DNA of 64,000 bases from Zasmidium citrigriseum (lineage: Eukaryota; Ascomycota; Dothideomycetes; Mycosphaerellales; Mycosphaerellaceae), in NCBI GenBank assembly GCA_002786025.1, contig NHNW01000003.1, positions 124,001 to 188,000 of the forward strand. The letters run 5' to 3'. Shown in pieces: positions 26,701 to 61,378 of this stretch (position 1 is its first letter; every line of letters starts with the position of its first letter). The translations under genes were made by a program, and so were the position numbers. The notes below the pieces were generated by a model. The model was not told where the DNA came from. It did not search any database and saw only the letters and a list, made by a program, of their open reading frames with translations.

Positions 26701-28422
26701 ATGGCTGCCGCCGAGACGTTTGGCAAAACTATCGATGAGAAGGAGGGGAGCATTCGACATATCTCTCCCGATTCTCCTCAGCTGTCCTCATCGCCTGCGT
26801 CTGATATTGACGAAACGTACGACGTCTACAAGCAGCATGCCGGCGAGGACATTGACCCTAGCGAAGCCAAGAAGGTGCTCAGAAAGATCGATGTCAGGAT
26901 AATACCGGTGCTCTTTGTGCTGTACTTGCTGCAATATCTGGACAAGAATGGCATCAATTACGCCTCAGTCTACGGTCTGGAGGAAGGCACCAATCTCCAT
27001 GGACAGGATTACTCCTGGCTGAGCAGTAAGGGAGATTACAACCCGTGTCTGCAAGAGAGATACTTACAATACGTGCAGGTATCTTCTACTTTGGATATAT
27101 GGCAGGACAGGTGAGATTGTCCCATCGTCAGATACTGGATATCTCGAAAGGCTGACCTTGGCTCCCAGTTTCCCGCATCATACCTCATGCAGAAGCTCCC
27201 CATCGGCAAATTCCTCTCCTGCGCAACATTGACATGGGGCGTAATCCTCATGACAACACCCGCCTGCGTCAACTTCGCAGGTATCGGAGCCAACAGATTC
27301 CTCTTAGGATTCGTCGAAGCAAGCGTCAACCCCGGTTTCGTATTGATCATGTCGATGTGGTACACCGTCCGCGAGCAGCCCGTCCGTCTCGAATCGTACT
27401 ACTGCACGAACGGCATCGCAACGATGTTCGGCGGCTTGATCGGATACGCTGTCGGCCACATCAATTCTGGACTGCCACGTTGGATGTACGTGTTCTTGAT
27501 CTTTGGCTCTTTCAGCATCGCTGGCGGCATCTACGCTCTCATCATTCTGCCCGATACGCCATCGAAAGCCAAGTTCCTGACTGAGCGAGAACGTTACATT
27601 GCTGTGGAAAGAGTTGCGAAGAATCGACAAGGCATCAAGAACAGTCATTTCTCCAAACACCAGGCTTTGCAGACCGTCACGGACCCCAAGACTTGGATCC
27701 TGTTCATCATGGCTGTGGGAGCCCAAGTCCCCAACTCGGCGTTGACGAGCTTCACATCTCTGATTATCAAATCCTTCGGGTTTGGTACGCTTGGAACGCA
27801 ATACCTACAAATCCCCGGCGGAGCGGTGCAATTCCTCTCACTGCTAGGTGGAGGCATCATCTGTTCGAAATTTCCCAATGTGCGATGCATAGCTATGATA
27901 GTGGCCAATTGTATTTGCATTATCGGCTCTGGACTGCTGGTCGGACTGCCTGATAGCAACAAGTGGGGCCGTCTGGTTGCCATCTGGCTGTGCTACTTCC
28001 AAGGGTTGGGGTTCTCGATGTCTTTGACGATGGTCAGCTCCAACGTCGCCGGATATACAAAGAAGCAACTCACTGGAGCCATTCTTTTCACTGGATATTG
28101 CGTGGGAAATATCATTGGGCCGCAGACGTTCAAGAGCAGTGAGAAGCCTGGCTATCATTCAGCATACATTGCGTAAGTGTACACAGTTCCTACACGAGTA
28201 TACTCCTCGCTAACGTTTCTCAACAGCATGCTCGTCGGCTACTCCATCAAGCTCGCCATGGTCATAGTCCTCTACATCTACATGTACACCGTGAACAAAA
28301 AGCGGGACCGCGAAGCCGCCGCACAAGGCGCCCTGAGCGACGAAGAAGAGCGAGCCGCCATCGAGCGCGGCATGCACGACATGACGGAGATCGACAACAA
28401 AGGTTTTAGATATGCTCTATAG
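26701..28422 (+). CDS. MFS transporter of the Dal5 (anion:cation symporter) family
   Basis: Four exons: 26701-27025, 27079-27110 (only 32 nt), 27169-28172 and 28227-28422. The introns are 53, 58 and 54 nt with GTAAGG/GTGAGA/GTAAGT donors. The frame closes throughout to give 518 aa. A hydrophilic N-terminus is followed by RIIPVLFVLYLLQYLDKNGI, then IFYFGYMAGQFPASYLMQKL and TWGVILMTTPACVNFAGIGA, with about 12 helices in all. The LGFVEASVNPGFVLIMSMWY segment is typical of the allantoate/nicotinate/pantothenate permease family. The protein probably sits in the plasma membrane, importing an organic anion; the exact substrate is unknown. The C-terminal tail is charged (KKRDREAAAQ...). Confidence 0.92.
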
Positions 28423-31411: not shown

Positions 31412-32746
31412 TCAGTCTCGGCTGCGGTTTGCTATCCATCTCCTGATCACCAACTCTCTCACCTTGTAACTGCGGAGAAGACGGCCAATGTCACCGTCCC
31501 ATTCGTCCTCGGGAGGCGGCACGTCGACATAAACCAGAATCAGAGTCTTGAGCACTTGACTCTGTACTCGGTTCACGCAATGCAGCCACCACCAGTCCTT
31601 CTGATCGTCCTCCTTCACCCTCCTCCGTCGCTTCCCGTCGTCGGTCTTCCAGTAAGGACTTGTGTACGATGGTATGATCATCACTGCAAACTCTGCATGC
31701 GAGAAGACGGGGCCTCGAAAGTAGAGGAGGTAGTCGACGGAGAACTTCACACCCGGTCGCACCACCCACCCAAGCGACCGGAAGTGATGATAGACGACGT
31801 AATTCAGAAGGAATTCGTCGTCTGGTTGTAGCTTTGAGGACAGCTCGCGGTGCGGGAAGTGGCCGTGGGCGATGAAAGCTTTCAGTAGAAGAGGCAGGTC
31901 ATGCATAATAGGGGCACCCGGTCCCTCCCAACGGATATCCAATACACCGAGACCGTAAGAGAGGAAGAATGCCTCCTCCATCGTCAGTTGCAGGTGTTCT
32001 TGATTCTCCAGAGCCTCTAGCTCGAGCTCCTCCTCGTCATGTGTCGAACTGGTCTCGGATTTGTCGACCTCCTGAAGCTGATTCGCAATGGGTCGAATCG
32101 TTTGCTCCTCAATTACTGAGGGCGCAGGTGTCGCATCCATTGCTGGCAGTTCGAATTCTGAAGGATCCAGCTTGCCTTCCTCCACCAAGCGCTGGCGCTC
32201 AATCTTCTCTGCCTCTGCTCTCGCACGCTCGAGCTTGAAGAGCCTTCGCCGCTCACGGCGAGCATTCGTGGCTTGTTCAGCAGTACCACCTCCATACCTC
32301 AACCTCACTCTGGCCTTCTCACGCTCGAGCCAACTAGGCTCACTTCTGCTGAGAGTACCCTTGCCGAAGAATCCCATCTCCCATAATGCGCGCACATGCC
32401 GAGGATCGGTGACATGGATCGACCTTGTCTCCGGGGAATAATATCCGATGTAGAGCTCGGTCGGAAGTGAAGATGGCGGCAGCAGTATCTGCGAAACGTA
32501 GGTGTATGCCAGACGAAGTAAAGAGATCGGGTTGGTTGGATGAAAGGCCGGTAGTGGATGAGTTGTCAACGGCAGAGGGTACTTGTGGATCTCGCCGTAG
32601 TTGGGTCCTTTCTTCTTGGTTCGCTTCTTGGATGTCCCTCCGGTGGTCGGCTTCATTGGGGTTCCATTTGCGCTGGTAGTCGTTGATTCGGCCTTGGCGA
32701 CCTCAGGAAGGTGGCCATTCGCTGATGCCCCCTCCGCCATGGCCAT
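31412..32746 (-). CDS. SEN2: tRNA-splicing endonuclease catalytic subunit Sen2
   Basis: A 444-residue single exon. The N-terminal region is basic and low-complexity (TSKKRTKKKGPNYGEIHKYP) and the middle is charged (RRERRRLFKLERARAEAEKI). The C-terminal nuclease domain contains YHHFRSLGWVVRPGVKFSVD and LLYFRGPVFSHAEFAVMI. The catalytic triad is inferred as Tyr342, His350 and Lys400 (QVLKTLILVYV). With Sen34, Sen54 and Sen15 it cuts the 5' splice site of canonical tRNA introns. In yeasts it acts on the outer mitochondrial membrane. It is relevant to the split tRNA genes elsewhere in the window, whose inserts do not sit where this enzyme normally cuts. Confidence 0.93.
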   Translation of the reverse strand: MAMAEGASANGHLPEVAKAESTTTSANGTPMKPTTGGTSKKRTKKKGPNYGEIHKYPLPLTTHPLPAFHPTNPISLLRLAYTYVSQILLPPSSLPTELYIGYYSPETRSIHVTDPRHVRALWEMGFFGKGTLSRSEPSWLEREKARVRLRYGGGTAEQATNARRERRRLFKLERARAEAEKIERQRLVEEGKLDPSEFELPAMDATPAPSVIEEQTIRPIANQLQEVDKSETSSTHDEEELELEALENQEHLQLTMEEAFFLSYGLGVLDIRWEGPGAPIMHDLPLLLKAFIAHGHFPHRELSSKLQPDDEFLLNYVVYHHFRSLGWVVRPGVKFSVDYLLYFRGPVFSHAEFAVMIIPSYTSPYWKTDDGKRRRRVKEDDQKDWWWLHCVNRVQSQVLKTLILVYVDVPPPEDEWDGDIGRLLRSYKVRELVIRRWIANRSRD

Positions 32747-40874: not shown

Positions 40875-41035
40875 AAAAAAATTTTGAAGCTCACTTTGTT
40901 TGCATGTGTCATCCTTAGTGCAGGCTAATGAAACTGTTAGCGATTGATCAAATAACCGAATCGATGAAGTCGTGACTTACGGCCATGCTAATCTTCTCTG
41001 TATTGTTTCAAATTTGACCAAATGCCCGAAGGCAA
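40875..41035 (-). ncRNA. U6 spliceosomal snRNA with a 56-nt mRNA-type intron
   Basis: On the minus strand the 5' hairpin (TGCC-TTCG-GGCA) is followed by TTTGGTCAAATTTGAAACAA, then the ACAGAGA box and AGC triad (ATACAGAGAAGATTAGC, ending ATGGCC at 40981). The intron (40980-40925) starts GTAAGT, has branch CGCTAAC and ends TTAG. Exon 2 continues CCTGCACTAAGGATGACAC, as in fission yeast U6, and ends at a T7 run (40881-40875). The mature RNA is about 100 nt. An mRNA-type U6 intron at a catalytic site is known in Schizosaccharomyces and some other fungi. Here it interrupts the conserved helix between ATGGCC and CCTGCA. This RNA is the spliceosome's catalytic core, so its own splicing is self-dependent. 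Confidence 0.95.
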
Positions 41036-59947: not shown

Positions 59948-60758
59948 TGGGAGTGCGGAGCGGAGAAGGGGTGGTGGCGGAGTCGGGTGGTGTGTTGCTT
60001 GCAGAGGCTTCAATGCTCTTCAGTGAGGTCAAGGAGAACCTTGGAAGTCAAGTTCACGCTCTCGGCTTCGGCCGCGCGGAAATTCCCGGCAACCACGAGA
60101 TGAATTTGAAGACGTCGGCGGCTTTCACTTTCGTCGTCCACAACTATTCTACAACATCGATATCGATGACCTACAGGGGCAACATTACTCTGCTCACGTG
60201 TGCGATCATTGTGGTGATGAAATGTTTGAAGGACGCAGAGCTCAAAGAGCTTTGAGCCAATGAAAATTTCCAGAGCTTGAGCTCTCAGCCCAGCATCGAT
60301 ATTGAACGGCAGATCAGGGTGTACGTCGAGCAGATTTATGTGGCTCGCTTCGATGGTTCGCATAAATGTGTGTCACCATATACCGAAGCTTTCTTGTCGT
60401 GTGAGAGAAGCTAGCAGCTCGACAGCAGACTAATAGCTTCAGCACATTTTGTAAGGCTGCAGCTTCGAGGATTGTCGACCTCCCTTGCGTTTTCCTACTC
60501 TCTATGCTATCGATGCTATGCTCGTTGTAATCAAGACACCGTCTCTTGTTGAGATCAGGTTTCGTTACGAGTTGGTGGTGTGAAAGTTAATGCAGCCTTG
60601 TGAAAGCAGGCTGTGGTAATCGTCGAGGAAACGGACCAAGACAACTCAAGAAGCAAAGGCCAACAAGACACTCTTACCGTCATCACATTCCGCCAAGAAA
60701 GGAGGAATGCAAACCAATATAAAAGAAATAGAACCGCCAAGCCTCCAACAAATCAGAA
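59948..60758. other. Intergenic region
   Basis: About 810 bp between the COX6 promoter and the RNA-gene unit starting near 60759. No further gene recognised. Confidence 0.45.
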
Positions 60759-60848
60759 AGGTGTCGGGTTAGCTGAGTGGTTAAGCACCAGCAACTATGA
60801 GTCAACAGAAATCTCTTCATGTGACTCATTCACTTACACAAACGCACG
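60759..60848 (+). other. tRNA-like leader with intact A box, directly 5' of the initiator tRNA
   Basis: The segment starts like the 5' half of a Ser/Leu-type tRNA: GGTGTCGGGTTAGCTGAGTGG, with A box TAGCTGAGTGG at 60770-60780. It lacks a T arm and B box. It also holds a perfect 8-bp hairpin (ATGAGTCA ... TGACTCAT, 60807-60838). It ends exactly at the tRNA-iMet 5' end. In fission yeast tRNA-Ser and tRNA-iMet form a dimeric gene in which the upstream tRNA drives transcription. This could be a decayed version of that arrangement (inference). Confidence 0.45.
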
Positions 60849-61024
60849 AGCTTTGTGGCGCAGGCGAGTAGCCAATGCTCCATTATATCGAGTATAATTC
60901 TAACATCCATCCAGCGGAAGCGCGCCGGGTAAGTTCAGCCTTCTCAGAAGTGTCCTCGAGCATCAATAATAACCATATCAGGCTCATAACCCGGAGGGCA
61001 ACGGATCGAAACCGTTCAAAGCTA
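60849..61024 (+). tRNA. Initiator tRNA-Met(CAT) interrupted by two spliceosomal-type introns
   Basis: The exons are 60849-60863, 60915-60928 (14 nt) and 60982-61024. Joined, they give 72 nt with acceptor AGCTTTG/CAAAGCT (7 of 7), D arm GCGC/GCGC, anticodon arm CCGGG-CTCATAA-CCCGG, and T arm AACGG-ATCGAAA-CCGTT (5 of 5), then A73. Initiator hallmarks are the A1-U72 pair, A54 in ATCGAAA and three G-C pairs beside the anticodon loop. Intron 1 (60864-60914, 51 nt) is CAG/GCGAGT ... TTCTAACATCCATCCAG. Intron 2 (60929-60981, 53 nt) is CGG/GTAAGT ... AATAACCATATCAG. They sit after tRNA positions 15 and 30, not at the canonical 37/38 site. Intron 1 splits the A box; the B box (GGATCGAAACC) is intact. 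A T7 terminator follows. The structure is direct observation; splicing by the spliceosome is inference. Confidence 0.92.
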
Positions 61025-61026
61025 TC

Positions 61027-61033
61027 TTTTTTT
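61027..61033 (+). terminator. Pol III terminator, seven T residues
   Basis: A T7 run starts 2 nt after the last base of the initiator tRNA. This supports transcription of the whole interrupted gene by RNA polymerase III. Confidence 0.8.
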
Positions 61034-61378
61034 GCTCCTTTTGGATCCTTTTGTGACATGGTCGATTGACTCGGCCTCGAGTCCAGATCATTTTTGATCA
61101 CTGAACGCTCTTCGACATGACGGACATTGAGGAGCGATCGTTCGTTTTTGCAAGCCCGTAACATTGTTGATGACAAAATTTGGGAGAATGCAGACCCGAA
61201 GCCAAATCGATCCATTCGATTTTTCGTCAGGTGTTAGGGCCAGGGATCGAAGAAAGATAGAGGCATGGACGACGACCCCAATTTATATATGAGCCAGCAA
61301 GAGCTGACCGGGTGCTGATCCAGACACCGCAAGACTGCTGCAGGACCTCGAAAGTCGGTGTCCAGAATCGATGATTTC
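61034..61378. other. Intergenic region
   Basis: About 345 bp between the tRNA terminator and the stop codon of the Prp3-C-type gene on the opposite strand. Nothing recognised. Confidence 0.5.

Follow-up and report, generated by a model that had tools for sequence, protein, structure and literature searches.

The stretch of DNA analyzed here (the window, 64 kb) contains, at nucleotides 60849–61024 of the + strand, a sequence that becomes a complete 72-nt initiator tRNA-Met once inserts of 51 and 53 nt are excised (Table 1). The gene, which we call iMet1, reads AGCTTTGTGGCGCAG, 51 nt, CGGAAGCGCGCCGG, 53 nt and GCTCATAACCCGGAGGGCAACGGATCGAAACCGTTCAAAGCTA. When the three exons were joined, ARAGORN called tRNA-Met(cat). 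It made no call on the unspliced gene or on the gene lacking intron 2 alone, and when intron 1 alone was removed it made a call only if a long intron was permitted, the 53-nt insert then being taken as that intron. From the genomic sequence of this locus, neither ARAGORN nor Rfam predicted a tRNA, and an Rfam search of 60600–61200 gave no match at E ≤ 1. The original prediction, made from the sequence of the window, was that the initiator tRNA emerges only after removal of both inserts, and the calls on joined and unspliced sequence bear this out.

Eukaryotic initiator tRNA-Met is marked by A1:T72, A54, A60, three G:C pairs adjoining the anticodon loop and a CAT anticodon. Spliced iMet1 bears all of these, and our own cloverleaf scorer counts 7, 4, 5 and 5 stem pairs, matching the perfect stems that had been described. 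The A54 form of initiator tRNA has been noted previously (PMC3978253, in part). By plain count the introns follow nt 15 and nt 29, and neither site is position 37/38; the sites had been given as 15/16 and 30/31, of which the latter holds in conventional numbering, as position 17 is absent. The GCGAGT and GTAAGT donors, the CTAAC and ATAAC words upstream of CAG, the 14-nt middle exon and the T7 run after the gene are all present as predicted, except that the 14-nt spacing given for CTAAC was loose, with 10 nt following the motif.

Table 1. Coordinates of features in the window
Feature	Coordinates	Strand	Details
iMet1 exon 1	60849..60863	+	Acceptor 5′ strand, nt 8–9, D-stem 5′ strand, start of D loop
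iMet1 intron 1	60864..60914	+	51 nt, GC-AG type, in D loop after nt 15, GCGAGT..CTAACATCCATCCAG
CTAAC branch-like motif, intron 1	60900..60904	+	
iMet1 exon 2	60915..60928	+	14 nt; remaining D arm and most of anticodon-stem 5′ strand
iMet1 intron 2	60929..60981	+	53 nt, GT-AG type, in anticodon stem after nt 29, GTAAGT..AATAATAACCATATCAG (3′ end also given as ATAACCATATCAG)
ATAAC branch-like motif, intron 2	60969..60973	+	
iMet1 exon 3	60982..61024	+	End of anticodon-stem 5′ strand to discriminator base A
iMet1 B box	61003..61013	+	GGATCGAAACC, A54 initiator form, uninterrupted
T7 run	61027..61033	+	Pol III-type terminator
TATAAA upstream of iMet1	60718..60723	+	
A-box-like word, iMet1 5′ leader	60770..60781	+	TAGCTGAGTGGT, 8/9 fixed positions
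U6 5′ exon	40981..41035	-	Rfam U6 positions 1–59, 40.4 bits (below gathering score of 44)
U6 intron	40925..40980	-	56 nt, GTAAGT..CTAACAGTTTCATTAG, by eye
Protein with tRNA-intron endonuclease catalytic domain (PF01974)	31412..32746	-	

The best A-box-like word of iMet1 lies in the 5′ leader, 52 nt past TATAAA, and the internal A box is split by intron 1. Equally good words occur 27 times per 64 kb of + strand, and the assignment of the leader word as the A box is suggestive only. The overlapping stretch 60761–60790 (+) resembles, by eye, a tRNA 5′ half (GGTGTCGGGTTAGCTGAGTGGTTAAGCACC).

The window also contains a U6 snRNA gene (~40886–41035, - strand) that is split by a spliceosomal-type intron. 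The two other U6 matches found in the genome, on contigs C117 and C59, are interrupted by an intron at the identical site as judged by eye; all three matches fall below the Rfam gathering score (47 of 2195 candidates scored). By contrast, 25 of 26 Rfam 5S rRNA matches are uninterrupted, spanning 119–121 nt at 78 bits or more, in a search that scored 47 of 2288 candidates and that an interrupted copy could escape. The gene for the PF01974 protein, a member of the enzyme family that acts on ordinary tRNA introns, lies ~28 kb from iMet1, and this domain is also found on C46. A window-encoded XPB/Ssl2 helicase is 87% identical to a Zasmidium cellare protein and 81% identical to one of Zymoseptoria tritici, and on this basis we assign the fungus to the Mycosphaerella group within the Dothideomycetes.

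A second initiator gene and other split tRNA genes

A comparison of spliced iMet1 with all 148 contigs of the genome (44.4 Mb) matched only its own locus and C67:467072–467127 (-). The second gene, iMet2, consists of AGCTGA, a 52-nt intron (GTAAGT..CTAACAATCGCTTAG), GTGGCGCAGCG, a 69-nt intron (GTCAGT..CTAACAACCTTTCAG) and a third exon beginning GAAGCGCGCC. One intron interrupts the acceptor stem after nt 6 and the other follows nt 17, leaving a middle exon of 11 nt; the acceptor strand of iMet2 is whole only in the spliced form. All four initiator introns are of GT/GC-AG type with CTAAC or ATAAC near the 3′ end. The A box of iMet2 is intact in genomic sequence and a T5 run begins 4 nt past the gene. 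No uninterrupted initiator gene was found by this BLAST-type search with one query and by a search with one exact 11-base word, GGCTCATAACC, which occurs 13 times in the genome: two occurrences are iMet1 and iMet2, and the initiator T arm is absent from the stretch examined at each of the other 11. Outside this genome, the initiator word retrieved 60 stretches from viral_contigs and 17 from genome_contigs; the T loop ATCGAAA, typical of eukaryotes, is absent from all 77, which were taken as bacterial and set aside.

Spliced iMet1 and iMet2 share 68 of 72 nt. The four positions at which they differ form acceptor pairs 5:67 and 6:66 (plain count), both of which are still paired, a pattern that suggests selection on the spliced RNA and argues against dead copies. 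The presence of a second gene with the same architecture at other positions, together with the gain of the true motif rule over permuted rules described below, indicates that the iMet1 inserts are more than chance.

Are other tRNA genes similarly split? We gathered tRNA-like loci with the Rfam tRNA model (RF00005; 63 of 1309 candidates scored) and with B-box words. Rfam yielded 35 matches among the scored candidates, of which 17 were on C51 and C41 and were taken as mitochondrial; the surveyed genes are taken as nuclear on the basis of contig, G+C and type. All places of B-box words 1 and 2 were examined (27/27 and 19/19). For word 3 (70 places), we omitted pairs ~207 bases apart, one C51 place and loci already collected, and examined 20 of the remainder; for words 4 (32 places) and 5 (15), the loci already collected were examined. 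Pairs of GGTTCGATTCC ~207 bases apart occur on several contigs (C3, C11, C39, C55, C85, C94 and C138), as in a repeat family. The resulting set comprises 83 oriented regions in which one gene appears twice (L016 and L094), such that 24 genes correspond to 25 rows of the survey. Regions were partly picked by recognizable T arms, a point against the preferred explanation given below.

Twelve of the 24 resolved nuclear-type tRNA genes need excision of a spliceosomal-type intron (16 introns; nine genes are firm and three softer), a proportion that describes a partial sample and is not a genome-wide fraction, since loci were only partly sampled. Two introns each are present in iMet1, iMet2, Pro-CGG and Arg-CCT (its second is uncertain). 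Ser-CGA, Ser-TGA, Leu-CAA, Leu-CAG, Val-CAC, Val-AAC, Gln-CTG and Lys-CTT have a single intron. The isotypes are our own anticodon calls rather than covariance-model assignments. Eight of the 12 (Ser-CGA, Ser-TGA, Leu-CAA, Leu-CAG, Val-AAC, Gln-CTG, Lys-CTT and Pro-CGG) also have an insert of 12–42 nt at position 37/38. Avoidance of the A and B boxes by the introns was considered and rejected, as 4 of 16 lie inside a box by our own count, close to an even spread.

These genes were recovered by two excision rules. The first excised as many as three stretches of 40–110 nt with a donor, a branch word and AG, permitted an ordinary 37/38 intron and rated the resulting cloverleaf; L073 and L069 come from this rule, and the other 10 loci come from a rule with wider donors. 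The softer cases are L085, L093 and L073, whose scores before any excision are already 40, 38 and 39. In L045, only the T-arm intron is firm; 6 of 7 acceptor pairs form and its second intron is uncertain. Three of the 83 regions (L011, L023 and L030) fall below the score cut-off of 38, yet ARAGORN calls a tRNA at each. Loci with T arms that were left out as unassignable, some of which have tRNA-like flanks, are L060, L062, L064, L066, L074, L079, L083, L105 and L115.

Among the loci outside the count, L060 (C69:270091), L074 (C101:211846) and L062 (C75:223521) are tRNA-like and have anticodon-loop inserts that lack GT-AG ends, for which a cut at 37/38 leaves no T33. A hairpin common to L060 and L074 shows paired changes by eye. 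These inserts are possibly odd endonuclease-type introns. L030 (C49:1634–1796), a tRNA-like copy that contains a 92-nt insert, is AT-rich, and repeat-induced point mutation may have altered it.

Splice motifs and intron class

The 16 tRNA introns are 50–78 nt long, with a GT or GC donor in an extended consensus and an AG end, donor and end being required by the search rule. It also required a branch-like word, which is CTAAC in 12 introns, CTGAC in two, ATAAC in one and CTAAT in one. For comparison, four mRNA introns in the window lie inside Pfam domains (two in kynureninase, one each in a ubiquitin-conjugating enzyme and an aldehyde dehydrogenase). In that order, they measure 58, 55, 66 and 56 nt, with donors GTAAGT, GTAAGT, GTGAGT and GTGAGC and branch words CTGAT, CTGAC, CTGAT and CTGAC. 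Thus, the tRNA introns and these four mRNA introns share donors and size but differ in the branch word, which is mostly CTAAC in the former and CTGAY in the latter. The comparison was restricted to introns that span Pfam domains because a count of window introns that join ORFs was uninformative: the true rule joined 13.0% of candidates, no better than the 9–18% of permuted rules. An intron candidate at 28173 in an MFS gene lies outside its domain and was not counted.

The rule with wider donors, which permitted one or two introns, was run at the 83 loci under all 24 letter permutations of the motifs. The true rule produced a gain at 10 loci. Among the 23 permuted rules, 18 gained none, four gained one and one (ATGC) gained five; as ATGC retains the G[TC]..AG ends, it is not an independent control, and its gain implies that the branch word contributes little alone. 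Under the first excision rule, a decoy with complemented motifs gained no loci.

We also dispensed with motifs and tried every 40–110-nt excision in each of the 67 regions that lacked a complete tRNA. A score of 40 was reached in 11 regions, and GT-AG introns were among the best excisions in five of these: L053 (two options), L067 (one), L117 (three), and L033 and L044 (19). In the other six (L060, L062, L063, L069, L074 and L030), no GT/GC-AG intron was among the best. Of these, L069 needs two introns, L063 is probably not a tRNA, and the anticodon-loop inserts of L060, L062, L074 and L030 may be endonuclease-type introns. An intron within a stem is fixed by pairing alone. With the partner intron held, the number of equal or better excisions is four for iMet1 intron 2, four for iMet2 intron 1 and two for L045 intron 1. 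Introns in loops or variable arms are unpinned, with 13 to 186 equal excisions (39 for iMet1 intron 1, 55 for iMet2 intron 2 and 186 for L073).

The catalytic core of group I and group II introns spans a few hundred nucleotides; the iMet1 introns, at 51 and 53 nt and with no Rfam match, were rejected as members of either group. A scan for bulge-helix-bulge folds scored spliceosomal-type inserts at 4–7 and 37/38 inserts at 4–8, and shuffled sequences often did equally well; because the scores of the two kinds overlap, the scan neither excludes nor supports the endonuclease. A start of GT or GC combined with an AG end was found in none of the 11 listed 37/38 inserts. From their sequences, the iMet1 inserts appear to be U2-type spliceosomal introns, which the spliceosome would remove.

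Expression, alternative explanations and implications

If iMet1 is functional, how is it expressed? In 22 of the 25 survey rows, loose TATA-like words occur in the 130 nt preceding the gene, an uncontrolled count; none is present for L022 and L112, and TATAAA of iMet1 lies just past this range. Downstream, a T5 run is present within 70 nt in 24 of 25 rows and within 17 nt in 14 of 25. The upstream TATA-like words and downstream T runs make Pol III the likely polymerase. Most likely, Pol III would transcribe iMet1 from the upstream TATA box, with the A and B boxes, to the T7 run. The spliceosome would then excise both introns from the uncapped precursor, as for fission yeast U6, the cloverleaf would fold, and RNase P and RNase Z would trim the ends. 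For iMet2, whose acceptor stem is itself split, RNase P cleavage would be possible only after splicing. Several other precursors would need the spliceosome for their ectopic introns and the tRNA endonuclease for the 37/38 intron.

Our preferred explanation, to which we assign a probability of about 0.86, is that iMet1 is a functional nuclear initiator tRNA-Met gene with two U2-type spliceosomal introns, transcribed by Pol III and spliced by the spliceosome, and that many tRNA genes of this fungus are similar. The gene architecture, iMet2, the compensated changes and the motif statistics are read directly from sequence; from them we infer Pol III transcription, spliceosomal removal and the order of steps. 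That the initiator gene would be functional despite its two introns had been proposed from the window, and the second initiator gene, the compensated pairs, the other tRNA genes and U6 support this proposal from beyond it.

It is conceivable, although very improbable, that the inserts are ectopic tRNA introns of the Cyanidioschyzon or archaeal kind, cut by the tRNA splicing endonuclease and sealed by a ligase, with GT-AG ends that are incidental. Fungal tRNA endonucleases are not known to cut in acceptor, T or variable regions, where inserts are found here. Moreover, all 16 inserts fit the donor, branch and AG rules (by which they were found), most with exact CTAAC, whereas the listed 37/38 inserts lack such ends and permuted rules with altered ends gained no more than one locus each. 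To be weighed against this are the tRNA-intron endonuclease domains encoded in the genome, one of them in the window, the failure of the bulge-helix-bulge scan to tell the two kinds of insert apart, and the ectopic, multiple tRNA introns of some algae (PMC3978253, in part). An even smaller chance attaches to iMet1 being a dead, intron-bearing copy of an intact gene that lies in unassembled or unsearched sequence. Although the absence of an intact gene comes from a single-query search and a single exact word in an assembly of unstated completeness, both initiator genes are complete once spliced, differ by two compensated pairs and each have a T run and a TATA word, and the occurrence of the same state in half of the resolved tRNA genes is hard to square with decay.

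The choice of polymerase is a separate matter. Because spliceosomal introns usually reside in Pol II transcripts, and because intron 1 splits the internal A box of iMet1, one could envision a capped Pol II transcript that is spliced co-transcriptionally and from which the tRNA is cut out later. We consider this unlikely, if less so than the two alternatives above: a T7 run lies right after iMet1 and a T5 run just past iMet2, short T runs close behind the gene recur in the survey, TATA words lie upstream, the B box is intact and U6 offers a precedent. A Pol II transcript would change only the polymerase and is compatible with spliceosomal introns in a functional iMet1.

Introns of nuclear tRNA genes have been described as substrates of the tRNA endonuclease. 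The titles and abstract openings that we searched, a body from which subscription papers and bioRxiv preprints are mostly missing, contained no precedent for spliceosomal introns in such genes, and the string "spliceosom" does not occur in the available part of a tRNA-intron review (PMC4090602). The comparisons that follow draw on part of each cited article. The fission yeast U6 gene holds an mRNA-type intron (PMC10484740) and, like the genes described here, including the U6 gene of this fungus itself, is a Pol III-type small RNA gene with a short GT-AG spliceosomal intron; it differs in that our hosts are tRNAs, with two introns per initiator gene at unshared sites, tRNA exons of 6–15 nt and many genes affected. 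Fungal U3 snoRNA likewise has mRNA-type introns in a structured non-coding RNA, commonly in Pezizomycotina, but these rarely occur in pairs and are almost confined to the first stem-loop (PMC5832005), whereas the tRNA stems here are split at many sites. Canonical endonuclease-type introns (PMC4090602) also lie within nuclear tRNA genes, and most of the split genes have one in addition, yet the introns described here differ from them in site, length and ends, and the listed 37/38 inserts have no splice-site consensus. Cyanidioschyzon and nucleomorphs have permuted tRNAs as well as ectopic, multiple tRNA introns. These introns resemble ours in that a genome contains several, in D, anticodon and T regions, but they are described with bulge-helix-bulge or no defined motifs (PMC3978253) in place of GT-AG ends with a branch site. 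Finally, introner-like elements attest to recent gain of spliceosomal introns in related Dothideomycetes (PMC4457414). An introner origin was nevertheless rejected for the tRNA introns: those of iMet1 match only themselves in the genome (E ≤ 10), and the 16 share just 11–15 nt near the splice motifs.

Small RNAs are thus already known to host spliceosomal introns; a tRNA host, with several introns per gene and split stems, appears to be new. If the preferred explanation is correct, tRNA genes would contain a further class of intron, Pol III transcripts with tRNA exons of 6–15 nt would be spliceosome substrates, and essential genes would escape standard tRNA finders, as iMet1 is invisible to both ARAGORN and Rfam. 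The system would also provide a test case for the splicing of uncapped RNAs with very short exons and for the spread of introns. For the fungus, the sequences make it probable that its nuclear tRNA genes, among them the two initiator genes found, have been colonized by spliceosomal introns. The spliceosome would then be needed to initiate translation and for part of elongation, Leu, Ser, Pro, Val, Gln and Lys precursors would pass through two splicing machines, and iMet2 would become an RNase P substrate only when spliced. With introns in the three U6 matches as well as in tRNA genes, the spliceosome, its own U6 RNA and the tRNA pool would each depend on the others.
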